Source: Laburnicola sp. R22_1 (taxonomy: Eukaryota > Ascomycota > Dothideomycetes > Pleosporales > Didymosphaeriaceae). From it: DNA of 64,000 nucleotides. Shown piece after piece: positions 3,649-62,988 of this stretch. The notes under the pieces were generated by a model, which saw nothing but the letters and a program-made list of their open reading frames with translations, did not search any database and had not been told where the DNA came from. The translations under genes were made by a program, and so were the position numbers. Where the stretch lies: positions 558,001-622,000 of the forward strand of contig JACONQ010000014.1 in the NCBI GenBank assembly GCA_014281115.1, given 5' to 3'. Each line of letters starts with the position of its first letter. The stretch's first letter is position 1.

Positions 3649-6600
3649 CTAGACCATGTTCGCAAGCTCAAGGTCGATCTGCTGGTTGAGGAAAATGCGC
3701 CGCTCACCAGTGAGTTGCGTCTGTAGGCGCTGCTCAGCGAGCGCGACTAGTTGTTTCTTGGTGACGCGGTCCAAGTCTGCTTCCCTGAGACATTGCTGGA
3801 CAACCTCAGTGATGGTCGCATCGCTGGGGCCGTTCATCATGTTCTGGAAGTTGACCGTGCTACCTGGCCGAGACTGGGCGTATCCAAGAGGACTGCGCCC
3901 CCGAATCGGTGGAGTGGCTACCGCGAGGTTGTCCGAGCTTTGGAATCCGCCCATGTTAGGTCGGCTGCCATAAGGTGACTGGTCGTAGTGATCACTCATC
4001 CCGCCCATGGACATGAGCCGCCCGTTTTGAGGGTTGTCCTGATAGCGAGATACATTCGAGTAAGACGAGTGCCGGGGTTGCATGCCTTGGTACGGTCCAG
4101 GTGACTGGCTCGGCGGCATGTGAGAAATGTGGTGCATGTTGGACATGGTAGACGCAGGCTTGACCGACGAGTATACCGATTGCATGTCGTTCATCTCGTA
4201 GCCCTCGTCTTCATAGGCGTTGTACCCGCCTTTCTCAGAGGTTTGCCCGACAAGTCCGCGACGCCCAGGAAGGCCGTTGGACTGCGCATACTCGTCCCAT
4301 CGCAGCAATGGGATACTCTTGGGATCGAAGCCTTCATCATCTGTCTGTACAACCTTCTTGGATCCCTTTTCGCCGATGACGACACGCGTGTTACCCCAGG
4401 AGAAGTCATCTTGCTTCCAGAACGAGTAGATGGGGAGAACGAAGGAATAGATAGGGAATGCGAGGATGTAGATAACCATCCATCCTACGTGCTGCCACTG
4501 GCGTTTGATGATGAAGATGATGGCTTGCAAACCATATACGGCTGCGAGCATGATGATCGAAAACATCGGGAATTGTCCAGTCCCCGAGGAGACCATGTAG
4601 ATGAGGTATCCGAGGTAGGCACAGACGGATGGCAGAATGATGGTTCCAAATAGATCGATGAAAACAACGAAGCGCATGCTGAAACAGCAGAAGCCACACA
4701 TATCCTTGAGAAGCATGAGTTCAGCCAGGTTGTGTATAGTGGAATTGATCCAACGACGCCTTTGCGAAAGCAGAATACTAAACGTCTCAGGAGCAGCTGT
4801 GAAGGCGTACGCGTCCGGGATAAACTTGTAGCGCATGCTTGGAAAATGCTTCGTCATTAGTGTCGTCAAAAAACGATCTTCGCCGAGGGACAACAAGTTC
4901 TTCTTATGTAGGGTGTCCACAACGCAGTCGGAGTATTCCTTGATAACCTTGTCGGAGATGATGAGTGGTTTGCCTTTGTCTGCGGTGCGGAGTCGGTACA
5001 TGGAGAAACTGAAACAGATTAGTCGAGTCTTGGACAAGAGACGCTCTACTCACCATCCAGGCAAACAGGTGACGCTGCCAAACAAGCTCTCAAAAGCCTT
5101 GGTAAGGTGATGAGAGATGTAGTATTCATAGACCTGGATCATGGTCCACCAGGATCTGTCTTCGTTTTCCAAGCTCGTCTCACCGCAAATACCGGCAATC
5201 CTAGAATCATTCGCGCAGCTTGCAACTAGCCGGGTGAGAGAATCGGGCCTAACCATAGTATCTGCGTCTACCATGAGAAGATATTCGTAAAGCTCGGGAT
5301 CCACACCGATGATGTTGTTGATTTGGTGGAACATCTCCAGTTCGAGGGGGTTCATCGCCGAGCGGTGATGGACACGATTAAGGAAGCTCATGAGCAAGAT
5401 TTGAGAGTCTCGCTTTCCACGGTTACCGGGTTTCGATTTGGACTGCTCAGACTCTTTGCCGACCTTAACCACGACAATGTAGGGGACAACGTTGCCTTCA
5501 AATTCGTAAAGACCAGAGTATACCTTCCCGTAGTTGAGCTGTTCGCTGCCTTGGCCGACTGATTTGAAAGGGAGCGCAGGAGGATCAACTTTCGGATCAA
5601 CGCCGAGGATGTCCAAAACGATTTTAGGCGTAGGCCGGTCATTACCGCCGCCTACAATCATACCATCGCAGATGACACAGATGAGCTTCCGTTTGTTGTC
5701 GTAAGCTAAAGCGGTAAGCGAGTCTAGGCCTTTACGAAGCTGATCTTCACCTTCCGTGTATGCGGGCACCTGGCAGATGACGAACTTGTCCTGGTTGGCA
5801 GGTCTCCTTTTAGAACCGAGCTGGAGTGCTGCCAAGAATTTGATGACAATGACGGCGCAGAGGATAATGGTGACAGAGAGAAGGATGTAGTCGTTCACCA
5901 GGCAGCGAGGAGTCGCGCGGAAATCCGTCTTACCAACATAGAAGACGTTGTCCAGACACTGCCGATTGAACTGTTGGGAGGTGTCATTCAATTTGTTGCT
6001 AAATCTTTCCGTGAGATCAGAACCAGCGTAATTCTTGACCATATCTTCTAATGCTGGATCGAGGAACGAGTATTGCTTGAGGCCGTCCATACGTTTTTGG
6101 GTGTAGAAGTAATCTTGGAGATCGTAAACTCTGTCGCCAAGGCGGAACCAGTAATGTTGCTGACTTTCACCCTCGTCTTGTATAACCTTGGTCTTCCATA
6201 CCAAGTCTCCTTTTCTGAACTCTTTCATCTTCGGCAAAAAGACGTTGGAATACCAGTCGTTCGATTTCAAAGCCTTGCTGTCTTGTCGAGTCGTCTGATT
6301 GCCAGACACGTGCTCGGCCTCGGGGTACTCTAATGCCTCTGAACCATTTCTTTGAAGCTTAGTGTTGTAGTTGTCGACCAGGTTAGGGCAGGCAAGAAAC
6401 AAAGGAGGCCGGATATACGGATCCATATCGGCACCAGCCAAAGGTAGCATATTTTCTTCAGTAACTCTGGTTCTGCTGTCGCTGTGGTCACGCTTCCACC
6501 AACTCGAAATGTCGTAGACGACACCACGGTGGCTGACGTAGAAGTCGTTGCTCCCTTGATGCGTGGCGACTTGTTCGCGGTTCCAAACCTTGTCCTTTTC

Positions 6601-9030
6601 AGGGCAGAGAAGCTTTCCAAAGGCAATGATGTAGAAAATGATGACGGCATTGAGAAGGAGGATGAGGCCAACAAGGACAAGCTTTTCTCGCCATGCCATG
6701 CGGACATCTGGGCGTTTCATACGGCCAACGAACTTGAGAAGCGGTGAAGGAATCCAGAACGTCAACGCCCACACGAACGCCACCCAGATTCTTCTGGTCG
6801 TGGTAATCGGCGTCTCCGTTATCACATGGTTACCACCCGTTTCAGCATCATAGTACGTGACGCCTTTGTCTTCGTCTCCCTTGGATCCCAGACCATAATC
6901 ACCAGGCCGGTTTGTGACGGTTGGTGCAGCGGTTGGAGCAAGAGATCTAGCGCCCAATGCACTCTTGGCGCCCATAGTGACAGAGCTTTGCTGGCGCTGC
7001 AACATTGGAGTTGGGCCTGCTTGTGAACTCAGGTCCGGCAACGGTGGGAAGAAGCCGCTTCCCATGGCGGGATCGTTCGCCGAATAGCCACTTTCAAGGC
7101 CTCCCGCGCCGACCATGGTCCCCATCATGTTCGCACCCGCCAGGTCTTGAGCTTTCAGGTCAAGCTGGTTTTCAGCTTCCCACCAAGTGCCTTCGCGGAC
7201 CCATACACGCTGATGACCTACAACGACCTCACCGTTGCTCCAGCCCCGCTGCAGCACCCAGCTTTGAATGCCGTCTTTCCCATCCATACAACCCAAGACG
7301 TGGTAGCGTTCGTAGAATTCGTGATGGTCGAAATCAGCTGTATAATCAGATGATCGATTGCGGCGGTTAGCCCATTCGGGCAACCTCCAATCCCGCAGCT
7401 GTCTCGATACAGTTGCGGCTGACCATGTGGCATTGGCGTCCTGGCTGAGCTTTTCGGGGCTTGCTTCGGATGGATGCAGAGCGAGGTGGAACCAGACCCT
7501 GCTGCTGGCAGCTGTGATGGGCAGATCGAACCGGTTGTATTTTCCGAGGACGATGCCTTCCCCGTTGACAGGCTGAAGTATCTCCTTGACAAAATTTTCC
7601 TCATCCGGTATTTCTAGCGCAAGTTGCTCCAACACCCGTTCACGCTTCTCGAGGTCCATCTGCTGCTGGCGTAGAGCAGGACCATCAACACCCAGATGAG
7701 CTTCGCTACCCTGGATGGCTTGGCGCATACCTTCCAACACAGAATTACCAGCAGGAGGTATTTGCACACCGTCTTCTTTCATTTCGGAATTGATACCTTC
7801 AGTATCGTCGAACACGGTGCGCAGAGCAATGGCCTTGGCGGGCGCCTGGCTGGGCACTTCGACAACGGTAATATTGACAATGTCACCAACCCCGTCCTCC
7901 GAAGGCGGAGTCATCTGACCGGCATCACTATCGGACTCCATCCTGCCAGTTCGGACGTCCTCGCTAATGGTTGCATTGGCGTGAGCCACGACGTAATCAA
8001 CGACTGCTTCGTAGATGCCACCAATGGCCGTCTCCCGGTCTTTGTCGCTGAATTTCTGTCTGAGCAAATCCGGGTCAACATCCAACAGGCCGCCGCATTC
8101 ATCGCAGACGGACCGCAGGGTGTCCTCGTCAACAAAGTAGCCAAGAGTGTTGCCAAGCTTGAGCAAGCCGGCGAGGCAGCTGATCAAGTTGGAGAGTTTT
8201 TGGCCCTTGATACCAATAGCCTTGAGGTTGGCACGGAAGTCCTCGGCGGCGGCAGCATCGTCGACGTCCGGAAGATACGAAGGCGGGTCGTACGTGCCAG
8301 ATTTGTTTAGCAACGAGTACTCGGATGGGTGCTTCAAGTTCAGGAATTCACGCTCGGCCCGGCTGGCTGAGCTTGAGTTGAGGTAGTAAAAGACATCGAA
8401 AGCACGATATCCCGGCTGCGTCGGAATGTCCAGCAGACCTTTCTGAGTATCTAGGCCACTGGTAGAGAGCTTGATCTCGGCCCCGAGTAGATTGCCCTGG
8501 AGGTTGATTGTGAAGATTGCGGCCAGTGCCGAATGGCGGGGAAACGAGGGGTTTTGCGGCGTCACGCAATGCGTGAAGGCCTTGAGAGCCTCGAGCGCAA
8601 TGTAGAAGCTGGTGGGGATCGATAGCGGCAACCCGGATATAAAGGGCGACAGGAGTGAGGGGCTCGATTCGTGGAGCAATCTGCTGGTCGTTAGCAATGG
8701 GCGGGTCGGACGAAACTGCAGTGCGGCTCACCCTAATATGATGCAGCCGTCTTCGGCACGACGGCGAGCATGTTCCCAAGCCTTCCGTCCCAGCTCGAGG
8801 TCAACCGTGCCACCTATGCGGTCGTTTATCGTCGTCCGCGCCGTGACCCAAGTGTTGACGACGAGGCTCGTGCTCGCTTCAAGATGGAAGGGCTGGTTGT
8901 TCTTGAAGCACGTGTTCAAGGCATTGAGGAGAGTAGTCGTAGACATCTGCATCGACGGGTTGCCGGTGCGTGTTGGGGCATTGGAGGTGGTCGAGTAGAC
9001 GGACATGCGCGAGTTGTTGACGAAACTCAT
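3649..9030 (-). CDS. csmB: Class VII (csmB/ChsVb-type) chitin synthase
   Basis: Three minus-strand exons, 8732-9030, 5054-8680 and 3649-5008, are joined through introns 8681-8731 and 5009-5053. The joins restore CIILGLLHESS and [13 protein letters not shown]. The product is about 1761 residues. The N-terminal third resembles a short myosin-like domain, but I see no P-loop (GESGAGKT), which fits the csmB type that lacks ATP-binding motifs. Next come two membrane segments, a cytochrome-b5-like domain ([16 protein letters not shown]), and the processive glycosyltransferase core with [19 protein letters not shown] and the signature QRRRW at about residue 1391. A cluster of membrane spans and a DEK_C-like tail follow. 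The enzyme makes beta-1,4-GlcNAc chains at the plasma membrane at sites of polar growth. Some authors call this group class VI; I use the seven-class scheme. It is divergent from the class V gene. Confidence 0.95.
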
Positions 9031-10753
9031 GGCGGTGGCGGGCTGGGGTGCGAGCCCCGGGAGCGAGTGCGGTGCAGGTGTCTTCTATGCGGAGGGCAGA
9101 GGTTCGCGAGGCTGCTGACGAGTAGCGATGGTGAAAGGCCGACGAGCGAGCGTCTCTGTAGGTAGAAGCTCGCGCGTACGGGGCTTGCTTGGTGAGGGCT
9201 CTCTACTCTACACGTGGATATACGGCCCTGATCTCACTGCTTGACGGCAATTATGGCGGAGAGGCCTAGCGAAGGTGCTAATTAAACGATTGTGAGTGAG
9301 AAGAAAAAACGAAGCGAGGGCGGAAACACGCGCGACAGCAGCAGAGCAGAGAAGGGCGATGATTGTTGGTGGAGGGCTGTTGCTCTCCCATTCCTCCCTG
9401 CTCGAGACGCTAGGCGCCGCTGTATTGAAAAATACATTACGGCCCAGTGCAACGACCGCAGCTGGGCTCTCGACACCCGCCTGCATGGCGAGCCCCAATT
9501 TGCATGTAACTAGCGGCGTGGCGGCCGACGGCGCCCAGCGTGAGTGGACCGGTCTCACAGCCCCTATTGTCAACCATCAACAAATTCTGTTTCCCTTCTT
9601 ACTAGCCCAAGGTAGGTGCAGTTGGATGTAGAGTGGTGGGCCGTCGTGCTGTATTGAGTGCGCGTCCACGTCTCCACCCTCCATCATGCGCTGACCGTTG
9701 ACGGCTGTACTCGGTGTTGCTTCTCGATTCTCTGAGCTCTGCCGATCAATAGTATTGATGTCACGAGACCACGACGCGGTGCCTCTGCTGGCGTACGAAT
9801 AATAATAGGAGAGGTGGCGGCACGAGATGGAGGACTGCATTTCAGCCTCGGTCGGCCAGCCAACACACACACACACATGGTCGGTCCATGGCGTGCAAGC
9901 AGCAACCCGAGCAGCACCATGTGTGACCACGAGCCGTCTCAGCTCCCCACACCGGATGGTGTTGATAAGGGTACGGCTACTACGGTAGCAGCTGGAGGCC
10001 GCCGAGGCCAAAGCCAAAGCCAATATTCCGCGATCGTCCGGCCGTCGTCGATGGATCATGGCCTGCAGCCCTGGAGCGATCTACCCCAGCCTTGCGACCC
10101 TGGCCCGCTCCTTTCATGTATTCTGATCTTGGACGTCCTGCAATGCCCATCAGCAAGCAGCAAGATGTTATCGTGAGGTTGCGTGGGCTGCCCAAGCAGT
10201 GGATGGCCTTCTCGCCGCGCATCCATAAGCAACGCGAGAACGGATGCCGTGGCTGTGACCAGCTGCCAGCTGCCAGCGTGATGTGAATGCTGCAAGTGAG
10301 CCGACGGCCTGGACAGGCAATACTTTACACTAGTGTACGCCGTTTTGTATCTATTTTAATAATAGCAAGCCGGCGCATGGCCGCCCGACGCGGCGAGGTT
10401 GCACCTGTGCACTCGCTAGAGCCGTCAAGAAGCACGCCAAGCCAAACACGCCCGCCCAGCCCGCATCATTTCACCCCTTCACCTCTGCAACGGCCCTGTG
10501 TGCCCGTTTCCCTTCGTTTCTGCGCCCTTGCCCGTCGCTGTACGCTCGCTGCTTGTAGTATACCAGAGCTCGTCGCCTGCCGCTCGTTGTGCCTCCTGAG
10601 CCCGCTGCATTCCGCTCCCAAACACGACCAGGTGGAAGAAGCAAGACACCATCCAGACTCCATACGCACCTCTGCACTGCAGCTTGCGACCACAGCCGCC
10701 TGACGCCCACACTCGCTCAACGCTCCCACGGGGACGCGTCCGTGCCGCCGCCA
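9031..10753. promoter_or_regulatory. Shared divergent promoter region of the chitin synthase pair
   Basis: This 1.7-kb stretch separates the start codons of the csmB-type (minus) and csmA-type (plus) genes and has no convincing gene. It is rich in CT/GA tracts near both starts and has a CA run near 9866-9877. Head-to-head class V/VII pairs are a known arrangement in filamentous fungi, so shared regulation is a reasonable inference. I could not assign individual factor sites. Confidence 0.6.
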
Positions 10754-13700
10754 ATGGCCAGCAGTTCGTTCGGGGGGAACATGCCCCAGTATACCCAGCC
10801 GTCGCTGCCAGCTCTGGGCCAGCACCTGCAGTCCGACACACACCTCACGGCCCATCTGGCGAGCCGCTTCCATGCCCATCTGCCGACCTCGACGCTCTCT
10901 TCGCACGCCATCATCTCGCTGAACACATACACAGACTCCAGCCGGGGGCCCGAGGGTGGCAAGGATGGCAGCGCCCAGCAGGCCGCCGAAGACCTCGCAC
11001 AGCGCGCCTATTCACGCCTTGGCTTGCGCTCCGAAGACCAAGCTGTTGTCTTTCTGTAAGTATCTTCCCGAGTTCATGCGTTGGTGGCCGACCACGGCTG
11101 ACACGTGCCAGGGGCGAGTCGGGTGCTGGCAAAACCACCATCCGCGGGCACATGCTGCGCGCCTTCCTTTCCTTCTCAGCCACGCCGCTGTCGAAGAAGA
11201 TTGAGCATGCCAACTTCATCTTCGACGCCTTCACCACCATCAAGTCTACGACGACGCCTGTGGCTTCAAAGGCCGGCCTGCTCCTAGAGCTACAGTACCA
11301 AACGGCGACTTCGCACCATGCCACACTCATTGGCGCCCAATTTCTGGCGCATCGTCTTGAGCGCAGTCGCATCGCATCCGTCCCTACTGGCGAGCGCAAT
11401 TACCATATCCTGTACTACCTGCTCTCCGGCACCAGTTTAGCCGAGAAGAAGCATCTGGGTCTGGACATGGTGGGAAATGACGGCGCTGGAAACCGCGCCT
11501 CGCTCACGGCGAACAAGCGATGGCGGTATCTAGGGCATCCCTCACAGCTCAAAGTCGGCATTGACGATGCAAAGGGCTTCCAAGACTTCAAGACCGCACT
11601 GCGGAGGCTCGAGTTTTCCAAGCAGGACATAGCAGGCATATGCGAGGTCATGGCCATTATCCTCCATATTGGACAGCTAGAATTTGAAATGGGTCAATCC
11701 ACGACCCCTGCAGCCGACGAGAGTGGAGGTTATTCGCACGAAGGTGGCGAGTCAATCACCATGGTCAAGAACAAGGAGTCCCTGGAGCCCATTGCCCGTT
11801 TTCTGCAAGTAACCATCTCCGATCTCGAGCAGAGTCTTCGATACAAGACTAAAACGCTCTATCGTGAGCGCGTCACGGTCATGTTGGACCCGAAGGGCGC
11901 GCGAGCGAACGCTGACGAAATGGCACGGACCTTCTACTCGCTGCTGACTGCCTATGTGATGGAGCAGGTCAACACGAGAATAGCTGCCTTGTCCGAGGAG
12001 GTCAACAACACAGTATCCATGGTCGACTTCCCGGGCTTCGCACCTTACTCTGGGACCGGATCGAATCTCGACCAACTTCTCAACAACTCCGCCAATGAAT
12101 TCCTGCACAACTTCTATTCGCAGAGCTTCTTCGGCCGCCAGATGGAAGAGATGGAAGCTGAGGATATCAGCGTTCCCCAACTGCAATATTGGGACAATTC
12201 CGAAGCGAAGACGGGTCTTCTTAAATCAGGAAATGGTCTTTTGAGCATTCTCGACGATCAGATGCGCCGCGGCAAGGACGACATGCAATTCTTAGAGGCT
12301 ATCCGCAAGCGCTTCAATGGCAAGAATAATTCGATTCTGCCTGGCAGCTTGACCGTTGTGCAACCTGGCAGTAACTTTCCCACGCCCAACACCTCGCCCT
12401 CATTCACCGTCCGCCATTTCGCCGGGGAAGTCGATTATTCGGTTGAAAATCTCCTCGAGGAGAACGCTGAGCTCATCTCGGGTGACATGATGAACCTTCT
12501 GAAATCCGCCCAGAGTCCTTTCATCCAAGAGCTGTTCGGACAAGAGGCTTTGAAAAAGGTCACACATCCGAAGGAGAGGTCGGCCATTGTACAAGCCTCT
12601 GTCAGCTCCAAACCTATGAGGATGCCCAGTATGGCGCGTCGTAAAACTGGCAAGGGTGGACGTTTTGGTCGTCCAGTCAATGTATTTGATGAAGACGCAA
12701 TAAGCGATGCGGACAGCGCTGTATCCGGATCCAAGAAGGGCGACGCCGCGAAACAAACAGGTGCCGCCGGTCAGTTTCTAAGCTCTCTCAAAACGATCGA
12801 GTCTTCGCTGCGTAAGGCTAATCCCTACTTTGTCCTCTGCCTGAAGCCAAACGACCGACGTATCGCCAATCAGTTTGACAGCAAGTGTGTGCGAGCCCAG
12901 GTTCAAGCATTCAATATTGCTGAGATTAGCCAACGTCTCCATGTCGCCGACTTTAGCATATTTCTACCTTTCGCTGAATTCCTCGGTCTCGCCGAGATGG
13001 ACAGGGCTGTGGTGGGCAGTGAGAAGGAACGCGCCGAACTCGTACTGGATAGCAAGCCTTGGCGTGAGACAGAGGTGCGGGTCGGTGCAACGGGTGTATT
13101 CTTGAGCGAGCGATGCTGGGCGGAGATCGCCAATGTCGCCGACATCTCGCCCCCAGCGCGTGGTATTTCCGCCGCTGATGATGCTCTAACTCCCGACGCG
13201 CCTCGATCTTTTGGCGACTCGAGGTCTGGCCTCCTTGCTCCGTCTCCAGGCGGTTATTACAACGACAAGAACGGTAGCTACTTCGGTAGCAAAGACATTG
13301 ATGCTAGATCCGAAGCTGCATCAGCTATCACGAGTGGCGGCGGCGACATGTTTCACGGCCTAGAGCAGCCCAAGGTGATTGATGAGAAGGCTCCTCCGAA
13401 AGACATGGAAGAGGTTGATGTTCTACCCGTGTCGGGCAGCCGCAAGCGTTGGATCTTCGTGGTCTACGCACTTACTTTCTTCATCCCGGACATATTTATC
13501 AAATGGATTGGACGGATCAAACGGAAAGATGTGCGGCTTGCTTGGCGAGAAAAGCTAGCCATCAACATGCTGATCTGGCTAAGTTGTGGTCTTCTCGTCT
13601 TTCTCATGATCGGGTTTCCTAGGCTTATTTGCCCGACTCAAGATGTTTTCTCCACAGCCGAACTGACCTCGTACAACGGGAAGGATGGCAACCCGTCATA

Positions 13701-16468
13701 TGTCGCCATACGTGGCATCGTATATGACCTCGGAAAATTCATCCCAGCTCACTACCCTCAAATCATCCCTGATGCTTCTTTGGAAAAGTATGCAGGGAAA
13801 GATGCTACCAATCTCTTTCCGGTACAAGTATCCGCACTGTGCAATGGTGTTGATGGATCCGTACATCCTGGACTCAAACTCGACTTCAGAAATTCCAACT
13901 ACACCGACCAAAACAACCTGATCTCCAGGACCGATCTGAATGCCAAGTTTCACGATTTTCGATGGTTCACGAACGATTCACGGCCTGACTGGTGGTTCGA
14001 ACAACAAGTTTTTCTCAAATCCAACTACATGAAAGGGCGTGTCGGCTACAGTCCCCAATACCTCAAGACGCTGGCGAATAAGGGTAGTTCCATTGCTTAC
14101 TTATATGGCCGAGTATATGATTTGACAGACTACATTCCTGGTGGTCGTTCAGTTCAATACCCTCAAGACGGTAAAACGCACGATGATACCAATATCAACA
14201 CCAACTTCATGGACAACTCAGTTGTGGACATCTTCAGAGTCCAGTCTGGTTCGGATGTGAGCAAGTACTGGGAAGGGCTCAGCATGAGCGCCAAGGGGAA
14301 GAGTGCCATGAAAACCTGCTTGGACAATCTCTTCTATGTCGGAGATCTGGACACCAGAAACTCGGCCAAGTGCAATTTTGCCAAGTACTTCCTGTTGGCT
14401 ATCTCGCTTCTCCTCGTCAGCGTTATCGGGTTCAAGTTCTTCGCCGCTCTCCAATTTGGCAAAAAGAATGTGCCTGAAAATATTGACAAGTTCATCATTT
14501 GCACTGTCCCCGCATATACCGAGGACGACGAATCTCTCCGGCGTGCCATTGATTCGGCTGCTCGGATGAAGTACGATGACAAGCGTAAACTTCTTGTTAT
14601 CGTATGCGATGGTATGATTATTGGACAGGGCAACGACAAGCCAACTCCTCGCATTGTGCTCGATATTCTTGGCATCCCTGAGACCACCGATCCCGATCCC
14701 CTGAGCTTCGAAAGTCTGGGCGAAGGTCAGCGACAACATAACATGGGCAAATGCTATTCCGGGTTGTATGAAGTACAGGGTCATATTGTGCCTTTCTTGG
14801 TTGTGGTAAAGGTTGGTAAACCGTCGGAGGTTTCAAAGTAAGTCGTTCCACCCCGCTCTTGCTACTCGTCACTCATATCCTCAGGCCGGGCAACCGTGGA
14901 AAGCGTGATTCTCAGGTTCTTCTGATGAGGTTCTTGAACCGGGTTCATTACAACCTTCCCATGACCCCTCTGGAGCTTGAAATGCACCACCAAATTCGAA
15001 ACATCATCGGTGTCAACCCTACCTTCTACGAGTTCATCTTGCAAATCGATGCAGACACAGTCGTCGCCCCAGATGCAGCCACTCGCTTTGTCGCCGCTTT
15101 CCTCCACGACACCCGTCTGATTGGCGTCTGCGGAGAAACATCTCTTACCAATGCCAAATCATCCTTCGTCACCATGATGCAAGTCTACGAATACTACATT
15201 TCCCACAACCTCACCAAGGCTTTCGAAAGCTTGTTCGGATCGGTCACCTGTCTCCCAGGTTGTTTCTCCATGTATCGCATTCGAGCCGCCGAAACCGGGA
15301 AGCCACTGTTCGTCAGCAAGGAAGTAGTGGAAGCATATCAGGAGATTCGTGTCGACACGCTTCACATGAAGAATTTGCTGCATTTAGGAGAGGATCGATA
15401 CCTGACAACTCTGCTTCTCAAGTTCCATTCCAAGTACAAGACAAAGTACCTCTTCCGAGCTCATGCATGGACGGTTGCCCCTGATAGCTGGACGGTCTTC
15501 ATGTCCCAACGTCGCCGCTGGATCAACTCGACAATCCACAATCTTCTTGAGCTTATTCCCCTGCAGCAACTCTGTGGGTTCTGCTGCTTTAGTATGCGCT
15601 TCGTCGTCTTCCTGGATTTGCTCTCGACAATCGTTATGCCTGTCACCGTAGTATACATTGGCTATTTGATTTACCAAGTAGTCGTCAGTCCAGACGTCAT
15701 CCCTACGACGGCCTTCATCCTGCTTGGCGCAATCTACGGTCTCCAAGGTATTATTTTCATCATCCGTCGTAAGTGGGAGATGATCGGCTGGATGATCATT
15801 TATATTCTCGCGACACCGATTTTCTCCTTTGGCCTTCCTCTGTATGCTTTCTGGCATATGGACGATTTCTCCTGGGGCAATACTCGTATCGTTACGGGTG
15901 AAGCCGGCCAGAAGGTCGTCATCTCGGACGAAGGCAAGTTTGATCCTGCGAGCATTCCAAAGAAGAAGTGGGACGAATACCAGGCCGAAATGTGGGAGCA
16001 GCACACTATGCGCGACGATCGGTCAGAGATTTCAGCCTTCTCATATGGTACCAAACGCTTCATGGGCATGAATGGCAGCGGCTCTGTGGTTGGATCGGAC
16101 TACGGACAAATGCCACCGTCTCGACCAATGTCCCATCTCGACGTGCACCGTTTTGGTAACGGATCTCGGATGAGTCTTGCACCAAGCGGTTATGGAGGTT
16201 ATGAAAACATGGAGATGGGCAGTCTTAACCCTCTGCCGAGCGATGATGCGATCCTGGCCGAAATCCGAGACATTCTTGCCTCGTCGGACCTCATGCATAT
16301 CACCAAGAAGGGGATCAAGGCCGAGCTAGAGCAAAGGTACGTGGCACCTCACCCAACCAAGTGGAAGGTTATTAACGGAGTGATAGATTTGGAATGGACC
16401 TCACACAGAAGAAGGCATTCATCAACAGCGCCGTTGAGTCGCTTCTTGTTGGCAACCAAAACCAGTAG
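10754..16468 (+). CDS. csmA: Class V (csmA/ChsVa-type) chitin synthase with myosin motor domain
   Basis: Four exons, 10754-11055, 11112-14837, 14885-16336 and 16387-16468, encode about 1853 residues. The last intron (GTACGT to GATAG) restores the family C-terminus [16 protein letters not shown]; reading through it gives unrelated sequence. The start [12 protein letters not shown] gives the usual N-terminus. The motor domain has an intact P-loop, GESGAGKTT (about 102-110, right after the first intron), and a switch-II-like DFPGF. After about residue 770 come two membrane spans, a cytochrome-b5-like domain ([14 protein letters not shown]), the synthase core with [19 protein letters not shown] and QRRRW (about 1551), further membrane spans and a DEK_C domain. 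The motor is thought to tether or deliver the enzyme along actin to hyphal tips. The pairing of this intact motor with the degenerate one next door is typical. Confidence 0.96.
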
Positions 16469-17317
16469 CTCAGGTCGCAAATGTTCTGATTTCGCGTTTT
16501 CTGCAGCCTACCGGTCCCATTTACGATTGTATGGTCCGGCAAAAAAAATGCTCTCGTCTGTTTCGATTTTTATTACCTTGTTCGCGGGCCGGGGGAAGGT
16601 AAACTTGTCTATATTACCACTACCTAATCACGCCTCTTCTAAAGCATAGCATTCCTTTGGTTTTGGGCGGGATGGACTGAGGCGTTATTCATGTTGGGAT
16701 TGTGATGTAAGCTTGTGAGATTGAATGCATGTCTGGCAGATAGGGTTTGCTATTTCGGAGTAGAGTACATTGGTGTTTTGGAGGACGCACAGTAATAATT
16801 CAACGAGCGTTTGTGCGGTTTGACTCAGACTGTAATCATGTGCTCAGCTATGCTGTGTCTTCAAAAATGAGGATTTAGAGCTGTCATAAAGGCGAGTAGT
16901 CGATATGGCAGATGATTATTTGGTTAGCTAGGCCACAGTAGGTCGATCGAGGGGGAACCATGTCGAGTCGTCAGGCAGCTCGGAAGGCAGGGCTTGGCGC
17001 GCGAAACCCCGCCAACGATGGATTCGACAAACAATCGCCGAATTTCGACGCCCATTGTGCGCTCGCCTCCGCCCTGCAAATTTTCAGACGTGCGCTCCTG
17101 CAGCCTGAAAGCGCTGCATTGCAGACGGCCTGGCCTGTCTTTCAGCGGATACAACCTTTAATTCGACGGGCGCCACCACATTGAGTTGTGGTTTCACCCC
17201 CGCCACCGCGCCTACCAACTTCGCCCACGCACCTCGAGCCCAAATTCACGGCCTTCCCTCCCTCTGCCCTCTTTGTCGCAACGCCACACGACCCTCGATA
17301 TATCCACCACACCCACG
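16469..17317. other. Intergenic region upstream of eIF5B
   Basis: This 849-bp spacer holds the csmA 3' flank and the eIF5B promoter. The last 150 bp before the eIF5B start are pyrimidine-rich, as is usual for highly expressed fungal genes. No other gene was recognised. Confidence 0.5.
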
Positions 17318-45672: not shown

Positions 45673-46187
45673 ATGCGCTTCACCGTCGTCGCTCTCGCAC
45701 TCGCGACCACCATCGCAGCGTCGCCCTTCCCAGCCGCCGCAAACGAGGCCCTCGTCACGCCCTTCGCATCCGTCGCTGTGGCTCCCACATCAGCTGCGCA
45801 CAACGCCACGAGGACGCGCCATAAGAACCCGCACAAGGAGCCGACGCCGAAATTCAAGCTGCGATGTAATTGCCAGAAGCCGATTATTCCCGTGGGCCAG
45901 ATGAATGCGGAAGAGGTGAGTCTTAACCATGGGAGGATTTGCGTACGCAAGAGGCGGGATGGGTGAGAGGGAAAACAAAGGGTGGTTGAACTGAATTTGG
46001 AGAACTGACTCGTGGATGCAGTTGTGCGAGTTTAACTATTATCTGAATATGGCTTGTTTTCATCAGGCGCAGGGTGGTTGTGCGTCGCCGACCCTGGCTG
46101 TAAGTCACTGACTGATGAGTGCACCCCAAAACAAAGAAACAGTATGAAATGTTAAACGGAGCAAGATGCTAACGATCTCAGTGTTAA
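45673..46187 (+). CDS. Small secreted six-cysteine protein
   Basis: Three exons are proposed: 45673-45915, 46022-46099 and 46182-46187, giving 108 residues. A signal peptide is evident (MRFTVVALALATTIAASPFP). The mature part has a basic low-complexity stretch, then cysteines spaced C-1-C-15-C-9-C-7-C-6-C. The last exon is only TGT plus the stop codon. It is supported by a good donor (GTAAGT at 46100), a perfect branch site GCTAAC and acceptor ATCTCAG just before it. Without that splice the frame would read VSH and stop, leaving five cysteines, an odd number for a secreted disulfide protein. Size, secretion and even cysteine count fit an effector-like or antimicrobial-like small secreted protein, but no family is recognised. 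The first six residues (MRFTVV) match the start of the repeat precursor at 49297. Confidence 0.72.
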
Positions 46188-47238: not shown

Positions 47239-48234
47239 CTACAAATCCGGCACAGCATTCTCCTCCGCCCACCTCCTCACACTCTCAAAGTTCCTACACA
47301 CATGATTCGCGTCATAATCCGGCAGGGGCTCCTGCCTGCTCGGCTCCACCCGATACGTGAAAACGCTCACATCAGACGCACACATCAACTTCGTGCGCAG
47401 CGTCTCGATGCAGTGATCTGTACACGGTGATTGATTAGCGGTGCTGTCCTCTCCTTGGCTTGGCGACCTTCGCCTTAGCGGGATGGGATGGTTAGCTTAC
47501 CGAGATAAGCGCGCACTTCGTCGGGCTTGGTCGTCTCGTCTGCTTGGAGCTTGGTGTAGTGCGTGGGGTAGGTGGCCATGCGGAGGAGATTGAGGCACTG
47601 GAGTTGGTGGAAGACTTCGAGGCCGACGCGGTAGCCGGTTTCGCCCGTGTTGGTGTCGGTTACTTGGAGCGAGTCGGTGGGTTTGTTGAGCTTGGGGAAG
47701 TCGGAGAGGGAGACCATTTGGTCGGGGACTGAGTGCATGGGACGGTTAGCGTTGTCGTTCGTGTGCGCGACGGCTTGGGCTGGTTGGTGGCTTACCGTAT
47801 GCGATGTCCAACCAGGCTTTGTTTACCTCCTCGGATACACCCACGTATTTGGAGGAGTTGAGCGGGTTGGGAAGCTTGAATTGGACTTCTTCGTACTCTA
47901 CAACGTGCATTGCTGGCGCTGTGTATTGTTAGTTACAAGGCTGCGTATCGGGGTTGCTTCACGCACAAAAGACGCCGAATTCGTCCATCAGCCTGGCGGT
48001 GGAATATGTGGATTGGGACCGCTGAGAGTAGACGGCGCACACGAGTGTGAGAGCGGACATCATGAAGATGAAGAGGTTGCCCAATAGGAGATAGGTCATC
48101 CCCCTTCGCCTCGCTGTCTCTTTGATGTTATCTCTATTCAGGAAGGATGTCGCCTCGCCCTCTTGCGAGCTGAAATCATCGTAGTCGACCTCACTCTGCA
48201 CCTGCTTCTCCATCTTGGCGTTGGTCATCTTCAT
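47239..48234 (-). CDS. UstYa-family (DUF3328) oxidase, probable RiPP-modifying enzyme
   Basis: Four minus-strand exons (47967-48234, 47796-47918, 47501-47728, 47239-47417) give 265 residues. All three introns have GT-AG ends (donors GTGCGT, GTAAGC, GTAAGC) and keep frame. An acidic cytosolic N-terminus precedes one membrane span (about 46-68, MTYLLLGNLFIFMMSALTLV). The lumenal DUF3328 region follows: VVEYEEVQFKLPNPLNSSKYVG, SEEVNKAWLDIAY, GYRVGLEVFHQLQCLNLLRM and AYLDHCIETLRTKLMC. The family normally has two HxxHC motifs. Here they read HQLQC (171-175) and YLDHC (205-209), so each lacks one His. UstYa proteins oxidise and cyclise ribosomal peptides in ustiloxin-type pathways, and relatives act in cyclochlorotine synthesis. 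The gene is head to head with the repeat precursor at 49297. An alternative Met lies 23 codons upstream and another two codons downstream. Confidence 0.9.
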
Positions 48235-49296
48235 CGTGAAAGAATATAGAGTATTAAAGGCCGTAGAAACAAGATTTATTAAAATTCGACCAGCGAAGTA
48301 CAAGAGAAACGTAGGAAGATGCGCTCAACGCTGCAGAGCCAAAAGCCGGGATGAAGGAACCAGGCAAAAAGAACGAGGAGAAGGGGAGTTGGAGGAGCTG
48401 TGGCGCCGAATGGTGGCGAGTGCCACAAGGCAAAGGCCAAGCTTTGCACGGCAACGCTAACCGCAGACAAGCAATACCCACTGCGCCACGGAAGCACCTG
48501 TGAGCGCGGATCACCTCTGGTTGGCTGACAAAGCGAAACGAGGTTTGACAAGGTACGCTAGCCGACGTCTCGAGTCTCAAATTGTTCCGCACCACTGTTT
48601 GATCTTGGCGATCGTGCACAACTGTTTCCAACACAGATCCTGATACTCAGCAGGTGAGAAACCTTTCCCGTGACGGGGTGCCTACTGCTCATTTTGCTAC
48701 AGCGCTATTTTGAATTTACCAGTTGTGACGAATGGCCGGTCGGAACCGTGGACATGCTTTGTTTCAGTGCGGAAGTACCCTATGCCAGGGCTGGCGTTCC
48801 ACGATGGACGAGCATAATTGGAGCTGGGATATGGTCACTTGTTTGTTACTCCTGCTTCGCTCTTTGGGTACAGCTTGGCTGAATAAGGTGCCGACTTTAC
48901 CGCGGCCCCGTAGAGTGAAGGCGTGTTTACCCAATGATACACTCTCATTCTGGACGTTGGAAACATGGCGCCCACTTCTTCCACCCTCCGAGGCGCTCTC
49001 CGTCTCCCATACCAGACGGCACCGCCTTGCTCCCACTGTCACCCGAGGTCATCATCGATGCCGTCTTCGGTGCTAGTGCTGGATTGACTCAATGCATTCC
49101 GGCGTTAGAGCCAAGATCATGACCAGCAACCGCTCTTGTGCGGAGGGAGGGAGAGCTGAATATAAACCCCTCGTCGCAACTGATCACCCCATCTCGGTAG
49201 GCGTTGATCGTTCTCAAATCTGCTCATTTTTCTTCGCTCTCCTTATTTGCTTCATTCGGCTGGACCACTTTTTTTTCGTTGAGACGTTCCTTCATC
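48235..49296. promoter_or_regulatory. Shared divergent promoter of UstYa and precursor genes
   Basis: A 1.06-kb head-to-head spacer with no convincing gene. The two start codons face away from each other, so one regulatory region can serve both. A consensus TATA box lies on the precursor side. Confidence 0.6.
49161..49166 (+). promoter_or_regulatory. TATA box of the precursor gene
   Basis: TATAAA lies 131 bp before the precursor ATG and is followed by T/C-rich sequence typical of a strongly expressed fungal gene's 5' UTR. Assignment is by motif and position only. Confidence 0.5.
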
Positions 49297-50248
49297 ATGA
49301 GGTTTACCGTAGTTACGCTCCTTCTTGGAGCTGCTAGCGCTTATGTGGTCACCACCGAAAGTGGTATCAGCGACTCGGCCATGGCTGCTCGCAACGTAGC
49401 AAGCGGTGGCAGTCCAGACCATCCTCTCGACGCGAGGGACCCCCACCACAAGGGCTTTGGCGGCCGTCTCTTTGGCAAGGGCAAGAAGCGCGAGGTGGAG
49501 TACGTTGAGGTAGACGCAAGGGCACCACACCGTAAGTCAATTCAGCCTCGAGGTAAGATGTCTACTAACGGTGGATAGACAAGGGCTTCGGCGGCGGTCG
49601 TCTCTTCGGCAAGGGCAAGAAGCGTGATGCAGATGCGCATGTCGACTCCCGCGACCCCCACCACAAGGGCTTCGGCGGCCGTCTCTTTGGCAAGGGCAAA
49701 AAGCGCGAGGCAGAGGTACATGAGGCAGAGGTACATGTCGACTCCCGCGACCCCCACCACAAGGGCTTCGGCGGTCGTCTCTTCGGCAAGGGCAAGAAGC
49801 GCGATGCACATGTCGACTCCCGCGACCCCCACCACAAGGGCTTCGGCGGCCGTCTCTTTGGCAAGGGCAAGAAGCGCGAGGTGGAGTACGTTGAGGTAGA
49901 CGCAAGGGCACCACACCGTAAGTCAATTCAGCCTCGAGGTAAGATGTCTACTAACGGTGGATAGACAAGGGCTTCGGCGGCGGCCGTCTCTTTGGCAAGG
50001 GCAAGAAGCGCGAGGCAGAGGTACATGTCGACTCCCGCGAACCCCACCACAAGGGCTTCGGCGGCGGTCGTCTCTTCGGCAAGGGCAAGAAGCGTGAGGC
50101 ATACGTCGACTCCCGTGCTCCCCACCACAAAGGCTTCGGCGGTCGTCTCTTCGGCAAGGGCAAGAAGCGATCTGTAGAGGTTGAGGCTCGTGATCCTCAC
50201 CATAAGGGCTTCGGCGGCCGTCTCTTCGGCAAGGGCAAGAAGAACTAA
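49297..50248 (+). CDS. Secreted Kex2-processed repeat precursor, candidate dikaritin-type RiPP
   Basis: Exons 49297-49531, 49579-49917 and 49965-50248 encode 285 residues. A signal peptide (MRFTVVTLLLGAASA) and a short leader precede nine units of the form PHHKGFGG(G)RLFGKGKKR. Units 1-8 end in KKR, a Kex2 site; unit 9 ends KKN and stop. Units 2, 6 and 7 have the extra Gly. Linkers after most KR sites are acidic and begin EA, DA or EV (for example EAEVHVDSR, DAHVDSR), resembling Ste13-trimmed spacers. Repeated Kex2-cut units next to a UstYa oxidase gene define dikaritin-like RiPP loci, so the unit (perhaps HHKGFGGRLF or part of it) is a candidate core. The two 47-bp introns are identical and sit at the same place in the unit. 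Alternatives are a linear cationic Gly-rich antimicrobial or signalling peptide, or a repeat secreted protein without modification. Confidence 0.88.
49436..50245 (+). repeat. Nine-unit coding tandem repeat with duplicated intron
   Basis: Nine copies of a roughly 75-100-nt unit make up most of the precursor gene; the invariant part encodes HHKGFGG(G)RLFGKGK. In addition, a segment of more than 100 bp including an intron, around 49490-49595, is repeated without change 386 bp downstream (around 49876-49981). This shows a recent block duplication or gene conversion on top of the older unit repeats. Confidence 0.9.
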
Positions 50249-58867: not shown

Positions 58868-60961
58868 CCGTGCACGGACGCGCAACGCCCGCCGAACACC
58901 AAAACCCTAGACGAAACCCAAACTTCAACACCTTATAACTCCACCACTATAGCTCCAATCGATAATGCGATTGCAGCAATCGAAGCGCTTAAACCAGGAG
59001 AACAGTTCTCATACTAGATAATTGCTAACTAGTTCTATGTGAACCGAAGTACACTAAGCCAAAGACACCAAGGCTGTCAGCGCCCACGGGCAGCCAAAGA
59101 ACGCGATCAACAAAACCTCAGCCAACAACAAGAGTTAGAGCTCGTACACTATATTAAAGACCTTACAAAAAGAGGGCTGCCTCCTACAAGAGAGATAATA
59201 CAAAATTTCGCATCCTAGATAGCCAACAAGCGCGTGAGCGAGAGGTGGGTAACGCGCTTTCTTAACCGACACGGCCACCATCTTATCTCAAAATGGACAT
59301 CTGGAATTGACTCCTTCCGCTATAACGCTGATTCAAACGTCAAGTATAAGCTGTACTTTGACTTGCTACATTAGAAGATAAAGCAGTACGACATACAGCC
59401 ACGCCACACCTACAATATAGACAAGAAGGGCTTTATAATAGGTATAACAGAACACTTAAAACAAGTGTTTAGCTGTTAGATGTGGGAGCGCAAAGAGGTG
59501 CAAGCGTCACTCCAAGATAGTTCTCAAGAATAGATCACCCTCTTAGCAGCCGTCTGCGCTAATAGGGAGGCTCTACCGCCAGGTCTTATCTATCAGTCGG
59601 CGAACAGCTCACTACAGGCAGCTTAGGTGAACGCTATTAAAGCTAGGCAACACGACGTCTTTGTGGCTTCATCTCCATCTGGATAGACAAATAACGACGT
59701 TAGTTTAGCGTGGCTAGAGCAGGTCTTTAATCGCTGCACGAAGCAGAAAGCGCGTTGTGGGAGAGACTGGCGTCTCCTCATACTTGACAGCCATAGCAGT
59801 CACCTCACAAAGGAGTTTATCAACTACTGCGACTCCCATCGCATACTCCTAGCCATACTTCCCCCTCACTCTACCTATACGCTTCAACCTCTCAACGTCG
59901 TTATGTTTAAACCTCTCTCCACCGCCTACTCTAAGGAGCTCTCCACCCACCTCCAGAGGAGCCAAGGGCTAGTACCAGTCAAGAAGGGAGACTTCTTCCC
60001 GCTGTTCTGGGGAGCGTGGGAGACCTCCTTCAAGACAGAGACCATCCTCAAGTCCTCTGAAGCTGCTAGTATATGGCCTATGGACCCAGAGGTTATACTC
60101 AAACGCTTCGCGGACGATGCCTCAGGGCAGCAAAACAACAGTGAAGAACGGTCCTCAGCGCTTACCAACAATAACTAGCGCCAGATAGAGTGTCTCGTAC
60201 GCTCTGCAGTAAAGGATACCACCGCAGAAGAGTCAAAGTCGCTCTCCCAAACACTCCACAGACTCCAAGTACAAAACGAGCTGCTACACCATAAGAATAA
60301 TAGCTTAAGGGAGGCTCTCACTACTAAGAAGAAGCACAAGAAGCGCGGCAAACCTCTTAACTTGCAGCAGCGCCAGGAGTACCACAGTAGTGCTGTCTTC
60401 TGGTCTCCGCGCAAGATCAGAGAGGCACGTGCACGAGAGACAGTGAAGCAGAGGGAAGAGCATAACGGGCAGCTTGCAAAGGCTAATAGGAAAGAGCTTC
60501 AAGCTGCTGCTAAGCTACTCTAAGAGCAGGAGGCAGAGGAGAGGCGTGTGGCGAGAGAGGCAGCCAAGGTGGTAAGGGAGGAGGAGAAGGCTAACAAGGC
60601 AGCTAAACGCGAGCGCTAGAAGGCAGCTCGCAACGCTAAAAAAGCTATACAACTGTCCTAAAATAGCAAGCGCAAGGCCTTAAAAGCCTCTACTTAAGCC
60701 AACAAGCGTTAGAAACAACATGGTGCTAGTGCAGCTGCTAAGGAGGCATCACAGGCTGCACCAGCTGCCCCAGCTTTCATCACCCGCCGCGGCCGCAACG
60801 TTACACTTCCTAGTAGATTTAGATAGTACAAATTAATCGCAAGCATCTAATTACTACTACTCTACAAAATCTTGTAATAATAACTATTGTAGATGGCTTA
60901 ATAACTTCATCTTTAAAGTGGTGAGCATGTTATTCGGCGGGCGTTGCGCGTCCGTGCACGG
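58868..60961 (+). mobile_element. Element B: decayed pogo/Fot1-type transposon nested in A's left end
   Basis: Element B is bounded by TA at 58866-58867 and 60962-60963. Its inverted ends (58868-58896 and 60933-60961, starting CCGTGCACGGACGCGCAACG) are perfect. It lies 15 bp inside the left terminal repeat of element A, and A's repeat resumes immediately after it. Its length is 2094 bp. Its interior encodes a transposase ruined by many stop codons. Its end sequence is related to but distinct from that of A. Confidence 0.92.
58949..60826 (+). pseudogene. RIP-like decayed transposase of element B
   Basis: The text aligns by eye along its whole length with the intact transposase of element A. 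The start codon is ATA in place of ATG. Stops occur where A has Trp or Arg/Gln, for example TAG for TGG in GGATAGACA (near 59682), GCTTAGGTG (near 59623) and GAATAGATC (near 59530). Many other changes are C-to-T or G-to-A, often TpG to TpA, the mark of repeat-induced point mutation. The region encoding the last catalytic part is still readable in a 91-codon open piece at 59903-60178. The protein cannot be made. Confidence 0.9.
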
Positions 60962-61044
60962 TAACGGGCCACGTCGCGTAACGGGTCACGAACACCAAAA
61001 CACCAGACAAGCCACCAACTTTAACGCGTCGTAACTCCACCACT

Positions 61045-62988
61045 ATGGCTCCGATTGATGACGCGATTGCAGCAATTGATTCGCTAGAACCAGGAGAACA
61101 CTTTTCGTACCGCGCAATTGCTCGTCAGTTCGGTGTACCAAAGACTACGTTGACTCAAAGACACCAAGGTCGTCAGCGCCCACGGGAAGCCAAACATCGC
61201 GATCAACTACTCCTCAGCCCGCAACAAGAGTACGAGCTTGTAGAGTATATTGGAGGCTTAACAAAGCGAGGGCTACCACCTACAAGAGAGATGATACGAA
61301 ATTTCGCCTCTGAGATCTCCTCCGAGAGCGCCTCTGATGCCTGGGTTACGCGCTTCTTGAGCCGAAACCATGAGCATCTCACCTCTAAATACACCCTCGG
61401 GATGGACGCCACACGCCACAGAGCCGACTCTAAGGACAAGTACGAGGCGTACTTCAAGCTGCTACACTCCAAGCTCACTCAGTACGGCTTGGAGCCTCGC
61501 CATATATACAATATGGATGAGAAGGGCTTCATGATCGGTGTACTCAGCCGCTCCAAACGAGTGTTCAGCCGTCGGATGTGGGAGCGTAGGGAGGTCACTG
61601 CAGCTCTCCAAGATGGCTCTCGTGAGTGGATCACCCTCCTAGCAGCCGTCTGCGCAGATGGGAGTGCTCTCTCGCCCGGCCTCATCTACCAGTCGGCGAA
61701 CAGCTCACTGCAGGCCTCATGGGTGGCCGCCATTGAAGCCGGGCAACACGACGTCTTTGTGGCTTCATCTCCGTCAGGATGGACGAACAACGACATCGGA
61801 TTGGCGTGGCTAGAGCAGGTATTCGATCGCTGTACGAAGCAGAAAGCGCGTCGCGGGAGGGACTGGCGTCTCCTCATACTTGACGGCCATGGCAGTCACC
61901 TCACAAAGGACTTTATCGACTACTGCGACTCCCATCGTATACTCCTGGCCGTGTTTCCCCCTCACTCTACTCACACGCTTCAGCCACTCGATGTTGTTTG
62001 CTTCAAGCCTCTCTCAAGTAGCTACTCCAAGGAGCTCTCCAGCCACCTCCAAAGGAGCCAAGGGCTCATCCCAGTCACGAAGGGAGACTTCTTCCCATTG
62101 TTCTGGGGTGCCTGGCAGTCTGCCTTCACGACAGAGACGATCCTCAATTCCTTTGAAGCCACTGGCATATGGCCCATGGAGCCAGAGGCTATACTCAAAC
62201 GCTTCGAGAGAGAGAGCTCCAGCGAGCATAGAGGAGGTGAAGCATGTCCCCCAGCACCCAAAGAGAGCGACTGGCGTCACATGGAGCGTCTCGTACGCTC
62301 TGCAGTGAGGGATACTGCCGCGGAGGACTCCAAGACGCTCTCTCAAACGCTCCACTCACTCGCAGCTCAAAACGAGCTGCTACACCATAAGAATAACGGC
62401 CTAAGAGAGGCTCTTACTGTTAAGAGGAGGCACAAAAAGCGCGGCAAACCTCTCAACTTGCAGCAGCGCGAGGAGTACCATGGTGGTGCTGTCTTCTGGT
62501 CACCGCGCAAGCTGAGAGAGGCACGTGCACGTAAGGCAGTAGTACAACACCAAGAGCATGAGGAGCAGCTTGCAAAGGCGAACAGGAAGGAGCTTCAAGC
62601 TGCTGCTAAGCTCCTCCGAGAGCAAGAGGCTGAGGAGAGACGCGTGGCGAGAGAGAGAGCCAAAGTGGTGAGAGATCAGCTGAAGGCCGAACAGGCAGCT
62701 GCTCGGGCGGCCAGAATCGAGGCCCAAAACACTAAGAGAGCATCTAAAACTGCCCAAACGGGTAAGCGCAAAGCCTCAAGAGCGCCCTCAGCAAAGCGTG
62801 AGCCCAAGAGACGCGCGCGCGGTACTGCAGCTGTCAGGAGTCGCCAGAAGCTGCACCAGCTGCTCCACCCAAAATCAACTCTCGTGGCCGCACCATCAAC
62901 GTTCCACGCAAATATAGATAATACAAATCAATCGCGAGCATGTTACGGGTCTCTCCACCAAAAAATCTCGTTAAAAGAGCTATTATAG
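61045..62988 (+). CDS. Pogo/Fot1-type DDE transposase of element A
   Basis: One frame of 647 residues lies between the element's ends. The N-terminus has a psq/CENP-B-type helix-turn-helix (FSYRAIARQFGVPKTTLTQRH) and a second DNA-binding helix domain (about 60-125, with LTKRGLPPTREMIRNFA). The DDE domain keeps its catalytic acids: D158 (YNMDEKGF), D280 (LLILDGHGSH) and D316 (HTLQPLDVV), a DD35D spacing as in Fot1. The C-terminus is a long basic coiled-coil-like tail (ANRKELQAAAKLLREQEAEER). Compared with the decayed copy, the last 40 or so residues are in a shifted frame (net 4-base length difference near 62830-62860). The alternative frame would end INSRGRTINVPRKYR, as in copy B. The catalytic part is unaffected, so the protein may still be active. 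Confidence 0.93.
   Translation: MAPIDDAIAAIDSLEPGEHFSYRAIARQFGVPKTTLTQRHQGRQRPREAKHRDQLLLSPQQEYELVEYIGGLTKRGLPPTREMIRNFASEISSESASDAWVTRFLSRNHEHLTSKYTLGMDATRHRADSKDKYEAYFKLLHSKLTQYGLEPRHIYNMDEKGFMIGVLSRSKRVFSRRMWERREVTAALQDGSREWITLLAAVCADGSALSPGLIYQSANSSLQASWVAAIEAGQHDVFVASSPSGWTNNDIGLAWLEQVFDRCTKQKARRGRDWRLLILDGHGSHLTKDFIDYCDSHRILLAVFPPHSTHTLQPLDVVCFKPLSSSYSKELSSHLQRSQGLIPVTKGDFFPLFWGAWQSAFTTETILNSFEATGIWPMEPEAILKRFERESSSEHRGGEACPPAPKESDWRHMERLVRSAVRDTAAEDSKTLSQTLHSLAAQNELLHHKNNGLREALTVKRRHKKRGKPLNLQQREEYHGGAVFWSPRKLREARARKAVVQHQEHEEQLAKANRKELQAAAKLLREQEAEERRVARERAKVVRDQLKAEQAAARAARIEAQNTKRASKTAQTGKRKASRAPSAKREPKRRARGTAAVRSRQKLHQLLHPKSTLVAAPSTFHANIDNTNQSRACYGSLHQKISLKELL

Follow-up and report, generated by a model that had tools for sequence, protein, structure and literature searches.

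A nine-unit peptide precursor gene paired head to head with a UstYa-family gene altered at its copper motifs in Laburnicola sp. R22_1

The window analysed here, a stretch of 64,000 nucleotides from the fungus Laburnicola sp. R22_1 (contig JACONQ010000014.1, positions 558,001 to 622,000; assembly of 63.9 Mb in 26 contigs), contains two divergently oriented genes, one encoding a Kex2-type repeat precursor and the other a UstYa/DUF3328 protein. The original prediction, made from the sequence of the window, had described nine near-identical units, eight of them with KKR ends, and a divergent four-exon UstYa/DUF3328 gene 1.06 kb away, and the gene models bear out both descriptions. The features of the locus are as follows.

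47239..48234, minus strand: UstYa/DUF3328 gene, 265 aa, exons 48234-47967, 47918-47796, 47728-47501 and 47417-47239, with HQLQC at residues 171-175 and YLDHC at residues 205-209
48235..49296, no strand: divergent intergenic region between the two ATGs, 1,062 bp, with TATAAA at about 49162 on the precursor side
49297..50248, plus strand: Kex2-type repeat precursor gene, 285 aa, exons 49297-49531, 49579-49917 and 49965-50248, start ATG at 49297
49441..49488, plus strand: unit 1 core PHHKGFGGRLFGKGKK, with ...DARD directly before it
49532..49578, plus strand: precursor intron 1, GTAAGT...TAG, splitting the second His codon of unit 2
49918..49964, plus strand: precursor intron 2, same sequence as intron 1, within unit 6
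50195..50242, plus strand: unit 9 core PHHKGFGGRLFGKGKK, with an Asn codon and then the stop directly after it

The precursor opens with a hydrophobic N-terminus (MRFTVVTLLLGAASA) that, judged by eye, is a putative signal peptide, and continues as nine units, eight of which end in KKR while the last ends in KKN and the stop. Splitting the protein at KKR yields nine pieces that all contain the core (9/9), and every spliced core reads PHHKGFGG(G)RLFGKGKK, with two adjacent histidines and without tyrosine. The two introns are identical, 47 nt each, and lie in an identical block of 139 bp (73 bp before and 19 bp after the intron), which points to recent copying of one unit together with its intron. 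In 36 pairwise comparisons of the nine cores, taken over 16 codons per core with the optional third Gly excluded, there are 86 synonymous and no non-synonymous differences, reflecting at least eight distinct synonymous changes; the chance that eight of eight would be synonymous is 6e-6 for a synonymous-site share of 0.222 or 2e-4 for a share of 0.35, both rough values as the units copy each other. As all core changes are synonymous, the peptide is under selection, and the spacers between the cores vary in both length and sequence. Chance coding or a frame artefact was considered and rejected on the same grounds and because splicing of the identical introns restores the same peptide, while the unspliced frame leaves the unit and runs into a stop. 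A protein search of the assembly (E up to 10) matched this gene alone and found no second copy; as a DNA pattern, PHHKG has 13 matches in the genome, seven in the precursor gene and six elsewhere, and the reversed pattern has six.

The neighbouring protein matches PF11807 at 174 bits (cut-off 25), from a gene whose three introns have the borders GTGCGT/CAG, GTAAGC/CAG and GTAAGC/CAG. Both of its HXXHC motifs are broken, as H174 is replaced by Gln (HQLQC) and H205 by Tyr (YLDHC), so that two of the four histidines of the binuclear copper site are absent. In CctR, the corresponding HxxHC(x)nHxxHC motif is reported to build a binuclear centre that holds two copper ions per monomer, and activity was lost when its conserved His and Cys residues were changed to alanine (PMC12435403). 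The original prediction that the UstYa protein oxidises the unit is therefore not supported. In an alignment of 98 rows, comprising the window protein and 97 matching proteins, 68 rows are canonical in having every one of the four His and both motif Cys. Of the 28 columns with a conservation of 95% or more in these 68 rows, the window protein retains 25, departing at P156T, H174Q and H205Y, and on this sequence comparison it is well conserved except at the copper ligands. An AlphaFold2 model of the ortholog P0003 (mean predicted local distance difference test score, pLDDT, 81.4) places the motifs on successive helices, 160-174 and 191-211. If these pack antiparallel, H174 would lie opposite H205 and H171 opposite H208, and one His pair would therefore be lost and the other kept. 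A single-sequence search (E up to 1) found no relatives of solved structure, and the one match of a profile search, at E 2.1, was set aside as chance. Viral contigs searched with a UstYa-type protein of Alternaria contained no relatives.

The two-of-four His loss is carried by the Didymosphaeriaceae orthologs (Pleosporales, Massarineae), with which the window protein groups at a support of 100/99. The Gln/Tyr pattern occurs in seven of the 98 rows (the window, P0002, P0003, P0004, P0005, P0060 and P0096); P0005 has an insert at the second motif, and the NSDHC found there in P0006 belongs to an annotated protein that seems mis-spliced at this point. No close row comes from another member of the family, Kalmusia sp., which is represented by one protein at 36% identity. 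Among the 87 rows in which both motif Cys residues are readable, the other 11 having gaps or lacking a motif Cys, His is lost from both motifs in 15, from motif one only in one and from motif two only in three, the single-loss rows P0077 and P0094 being short metagenome proteins; since the rows share ancestry, a Fisher value for these counts carries no weight as evidence. On a tree of 40 of the 98 rows, the motif-broken rows need five label changes, at least three of them on well-supported branches. Other copper-ligand losses are found in Byssothecium, Massarina, Pleomassaria, Amniculicola, Polyplosphaeria and Periconia. UstYa orthologs also occur in Paraphaeosphaeria minitans, Paraconiothyrium brasiliense, Bimuria, Lentithecium and Bipolaris, and the Lentithecium ortholog has its HXXHC motifs intact. 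Differing losses also recur among the Pleosporales relatives P0016, P0018, P0021, P0026, P0028, P0047 and P0049. Such recurrence suggests a repeated relaxation of the copper site within the order.

The precursor has few recognisable relatives. Its sole protein match in a set of 5.8 billion sequences is P0001 of Mytilinidion resinicola (E 6.6e-6), and a two-sequence profile adds one protein, P0099 of Lophium mytilinum, both species belonging to the Mytilinidiales; as scoring in either search was confined to about 8,000 candidates sharing most words, fast-evolving Pleosporales precursors may escape them, and the narrow distribution is a lower bound. The three precursors have in common R-(XP)n-HHK and not GFGGRLFGKG: R-(XP)0-2 precedes HHK in 23 of 23 units (nine in the window, ten in Mytilinidion and four in Lophium), including two Lophium units in which Arg stands directly before HHK. 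Dibasic sites are nearly absent from the relatives, with one KR in P0001 and one KR and one KK in P0099, and a single Arg is thus the likely cut site in both. In the window precursor, the eight segments after KKR begin with EA or DA in five cases, EV in two and SV in one. Dipeptides of the XA or XP type after an endoprotease site, which Le Marquer et al. describe as the STE13 signature, are therefore present; the same authors report that the precursors of epichloecyclins and of toxic cyclic peptides lack this signature (PMC6339444). Repeat precursors of mushrooms produced in Pichia, a host that has Kex2, Kex1 and Ste13, had XA and XP removed and gave peptides ending at a single Arg (PMC9769878). 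The Laburnicola genome itself contains one proprotein-convertase match (P_proprotein, 102.5 bits) and three DPPIV-type matches. By its repeats and dibasic sites the precursor is a Kex2-processed repeat protein (KEP), and in its working it looks like an alpha-factor-type repeat precursor. The mature peptide is predicted to be HHKGFGG(G)RLFGKG, with HHK as its likely N-terminus after dipeptidyl trimming, since Arg precedes X-P-HHK in the window and R-(XP)0-2-HHK is found in every unit of the relatives. The original proposal of a Kex2-type repeat precursor is supported, and the boundaries of the unit shift from a Pro to a probable HHK start.

Taken together, these features are best accounted for by a secreted, trimmed and probably linear HHKGFGG(G)RLFGKG encoded beside a UstYa-family protein that is probably not a working dicopper cyclase, an explanation whose chances are judged to be about even. 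A Kex2-type protease would cut the nine units at KKR and at the single Arg, Kex1 would remove KKR, and a Ste13-like dipeptidyl peptidase would remove XA and XP, so that the released peptide would be secreted, cationic and linear. The UstYa-like protein, its oxidase activity presumably lost, may persist as a scaffold or escort anchored in the membrane, or else as a copper protein with half a site. The cyclised, toxin-like product that such a pair of genes would lead one to expect is probably not formed. With its conserved N-terminal His-His-Lys, the peptide may serve in the binding of metal or in recognition by a receptor.

Several observations weigh against this explanation. The dipeptide after KKR is of the XA type in just five of eight segments, EV (two) and SV (one) falling outside the signature, and Kex2 cuts weakly at a single Arg that follows Ser or Ala. 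The UstYa protein is 68-77% identical in five Didymosphaeriaceae proteins of four genera, with the motif Cys retained, and must therefore do something. The same Gln/Tyr pair occurs in the metagenome protein P0096, which is 73% identical to the four-His Suillus protein P0098 and just 33% to P0003, so that its double change looks independent, and a paralog in the Laburnicola genome (L002, G000:C6:1223067-1223402) has Arg at the same two positions (HQLRC, RVDHC). Repeated swaps to Gln/Tyr and Arg/Arg could mean that the copper site is modified and not inactive; P0096 and L002 lie outside the 40-row tree. The genome holds 31 PF11807 matches at about 25 places, and with 25 such places the probability that a repeat precursor has a UstYa neighbour by chance is estimated at about 0.16%; the head-to-head position therefore suggests that the two genes work together. 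Finally, 17 of 76 KEPs resembling putative basidiomycete pheromones have DUF3328 nearby (PMC7329392), so that the presence of a Ste13 signature is in itself compatible with a DUF3328 partner.

It is somewhat unlikely that the UstYa protein still modifies the peptide by altered chemistry, with one predicted copper pair (H171/H208) kept, the His-His unit modified in the Golgi and the two genes forming a ribosomally synthesised and post-translationally modified peptide (RiPP) system of a new chemical class. The head-to-head arrangement fits this, as does the enrichment of DUF3328 genes next to repeat precursors, such a gene lying within 15 genes of 1758 of 7878 KEPs with a peak at the next gene (PMC7329392). 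The joint replacement of the same two His in the Didymosphaeriaceae rows, P0096 and L002, with the other two retained, points the same way, together with the kinship of P0096 to the intact Suillus row and the placement of the motifs on two successive helices of the P0003 model. The inactivity of the CctR alanine mutants speaks against it, other Pleosporales rows lose further histidines (E, D, N or Q at 208) in what looks like relaxed constraint, and the His pairing is inferred from a model without coordinates. A more specific version, considered improbable, is that of a half-site UstYa class in which H174 and H205 are traded jointly and one copper is left, the His-His-Lys peptide supplying the missing ligands, so that the pair would act as a substrate-completed copper enzyme or a Golgi copper-loading station; in the aligned sequences the pair looks to have been traded in three seemingly separate lineages, twice for Gln/Tyr and once for Arg/Arg, with H171/H208 kept.

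The two genes may also be unrelated neighbours, which is judged unlikely, the UstYa gene being an old Pleosporales gene and the precursor belonging to a separate family of HHK peptides. UstYa relatives extend across the Pleosporales (97 matches) and precursor relatives were found in the Mytilinidiales only, no Mytilinidion or Lophium is among the named UstYa matches, and several flanking genes have housekeeping roles (KRE6/SKN1, gamma-tubulin complex, EAF7). A bearing on both sides comes from KEP type G-8, a non-Tyr, di-His type with Pro that has DUF3328 nearby in 45 of 49 cases (57 of 64 for the similar type G-3; PMC7329392) and includes the genera Paraphaeosphaeria, Periconia, Pyrenophora, Bipolaris and Colletotrichum. 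Eight of the 18 G-8 genera given there are among the named UstYa matches, namely Colletotrichum (37-39% identity), Pyrenophora, Paraphaeosphaeria, Bipolaris, Exserohilum, Ascochyta, Pyrenochaeta and Periconia, which counts against unrelated neighbours, yet that genus list lacks Alternaria and Curvularia, in both of which a close relative of the UstYa protein is found. The low chance adjacency and the possibility that the precursor searches, with their limited candidates, missed Pleosporales precursors further disfavour coincidence. Oxidation of the peptide by another, intact UstYa encoded elsewhere in the genome is regarded as very improbable: some of the other PF11807 matches have both motifs intact (e.g., L001 and L007), but nothing in the analysis links those loci to the precursor, and to our knowledge the enzyme sits beside the precursor in known pathways. 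The linear, trimmed peptide remains the preferred explanation.

A script scan of 1.5 kb on either side of the UstYa-type loci L001-L030 found KEP-like repeats only at L029 besides the window; a Lys-rich open reading frame (ORF) at L002/L024 was not counted as such a repeat. At L029 and L035 (G000:C7, about 567.8-568.7 kb), an N-terminal UstYa half covering PF11807 positions 9-110 gives way, within about 150 bp, to four repeats of the DPMLQVGEKSDSSYAESYKR type that contain Tyr and stand in place of the HXXHC half; inspection by eye showed no signal peptide belonging to these repeats. From its sequence, this locus may represent a fusion of a UstYa with a repeat precursor, or else a damaged UstYa that adjoins one.

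Elsewhere in the window, the genes flanking the pair are ordinary and include, besides SKN1/KRE6, the gamma-tubulin complex gene and EAF7, a DUF7730 gene and a short-chain dehydrogenase ORF. A Pfam scan of 27 of the 53 long ORFs found no tyrosinase, methyltransferase or peptidase domain, and no transporter of the kind listed among dikaritin accessory genes. At 45673-46111 (plus strand), about 1.1 kb from the UstYa stop, a two-exon model encodes a Cys-rich, secreted-looking protein of 110 aa (MRFTVVALALATTIAAS...) that has no Pfam match. Two divergent chitin synthase genes stand head to head at 3652-16646, with cytochrome b5-like and myosin-head-like parts, one of the myosin matches falling below the Pfam cut-off, and transposase-like ORFs (DDE_1, HTH_Tnp_Tc5) lie near the right end at 59687-62985 (plus strand).

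The pair bears on genome mining, in which a DUF3328 gene next to a repeat precursor is read as the sign of a cyclised RiPP; in this fungus the pair itself is intact, but the copper motif is broken and the precursor has trimming signals of the alpha-factor type. A linear product would mean that some dikaritin predictions are mistaken and that the motif has to be checked, and a modified one that the dicopper model does not cover every member of the DUF3328 family. The retention of a motif-broken ortholog in several genera makes the choice between a linear and a modified product directly testable. In the literature on DUF3328/UstYa proteins and KEPs, as far as the available parts of the papers extend, no report was found of an HXXHC-broken DUF3328 gene adjoining a KEP, and no paper was found that combines PHHK with Kex2 fungal repeats or DUF3328 precursor peptides with the Pleosporales. 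The word pseudoenzyme was not found among literature matches on UstYa, DUF3328 or the HXXHC motif, and DUF3328 together with STE13 matched PMC7329392 alone, the STE13 mentions in its excerpts concerning earlier work on pheromone-type KEPs.

Among known systems, ascomycete alpha-pheromone precursors share with the window precursor the EA or DA after KR and the XP dipeptides of Ste13-type processing, and differ from it in the Pleosporales PYGxPxG motif, which is absent from the window unit. A reading of the unit as a sexual pheromone was rejected on the absence of PYG[L/M]P[I/V]G; this pattern has two exact matches in the genome, neither of them in a repeat precursor, and the alpha pheromone of the fungus itself was not found, so that the search has no positive control. 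KEPs annotated as mating factors or pheromones have no DUF3328 neighbour, with three exceptions (PMC7329392). The DUF3328 copper enzymes CctR, ApnU and AprY resemble the window UstYa in PF11807, in a modelled N-terminal helix, in the two helices of the motif region and in the conserved Cys residues, and differ at two of the four copper-site histidines, H174 and H205 being Gln and Tyr in the window protein.

The dikaritin pathways of ustiloxin, phomopsin and asperipin-2a, together with victorin, likewise combine a repeat precursor with a DUF3328 gene. In victorin the ring closure runs through Phe and Leu (PMC9233826), so that a Tyr-less core is compatible with a dikaritin. Ding's definition placed a tyrosinase, methyltransferase, peptidase or transporter alongside, a demand later relaxed, and a DUF3328 protein with two HXXHC motifs is a further criterion (PMC12048977). 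The locus has the DUF3328 gene near the precursor (PF11807, 174 bits, 1,062 bp away) but in place of the two motifs HQLQC and YLDHC, and is for this reason not filed as a dikaritin; it also differs by its XP/XA trimming signature. The pairing that had been put forward as a RiPP mark is a known, enriched arrangement, found here with both motifs broken. The precursor agrees with the KEPs of Le Marquer 2019 and Umemura 2020 in its putative N-terminal secretion signal, near-identical tandem units and dibasic sites, whereas the precursor family differs in that R-(XP)0-2-HHK uses a single Arg and its relatives lack dibasic sites between units, save the KK of Lophium. Types G-8 and G-3 of Umemura 2020 are likewise Tyr-less, di-His and near DUF3328, a likeness drawn from type descriptions in the available text and not from unit sequences. 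As DUF3328 pairing and Tyr-less di-His precursors were already published there from genomes in 2020 (PMC7329392), the earlier description of the system as so far undescribed does not hold in full, and the window pair is a new variant of an arrangement already on record.

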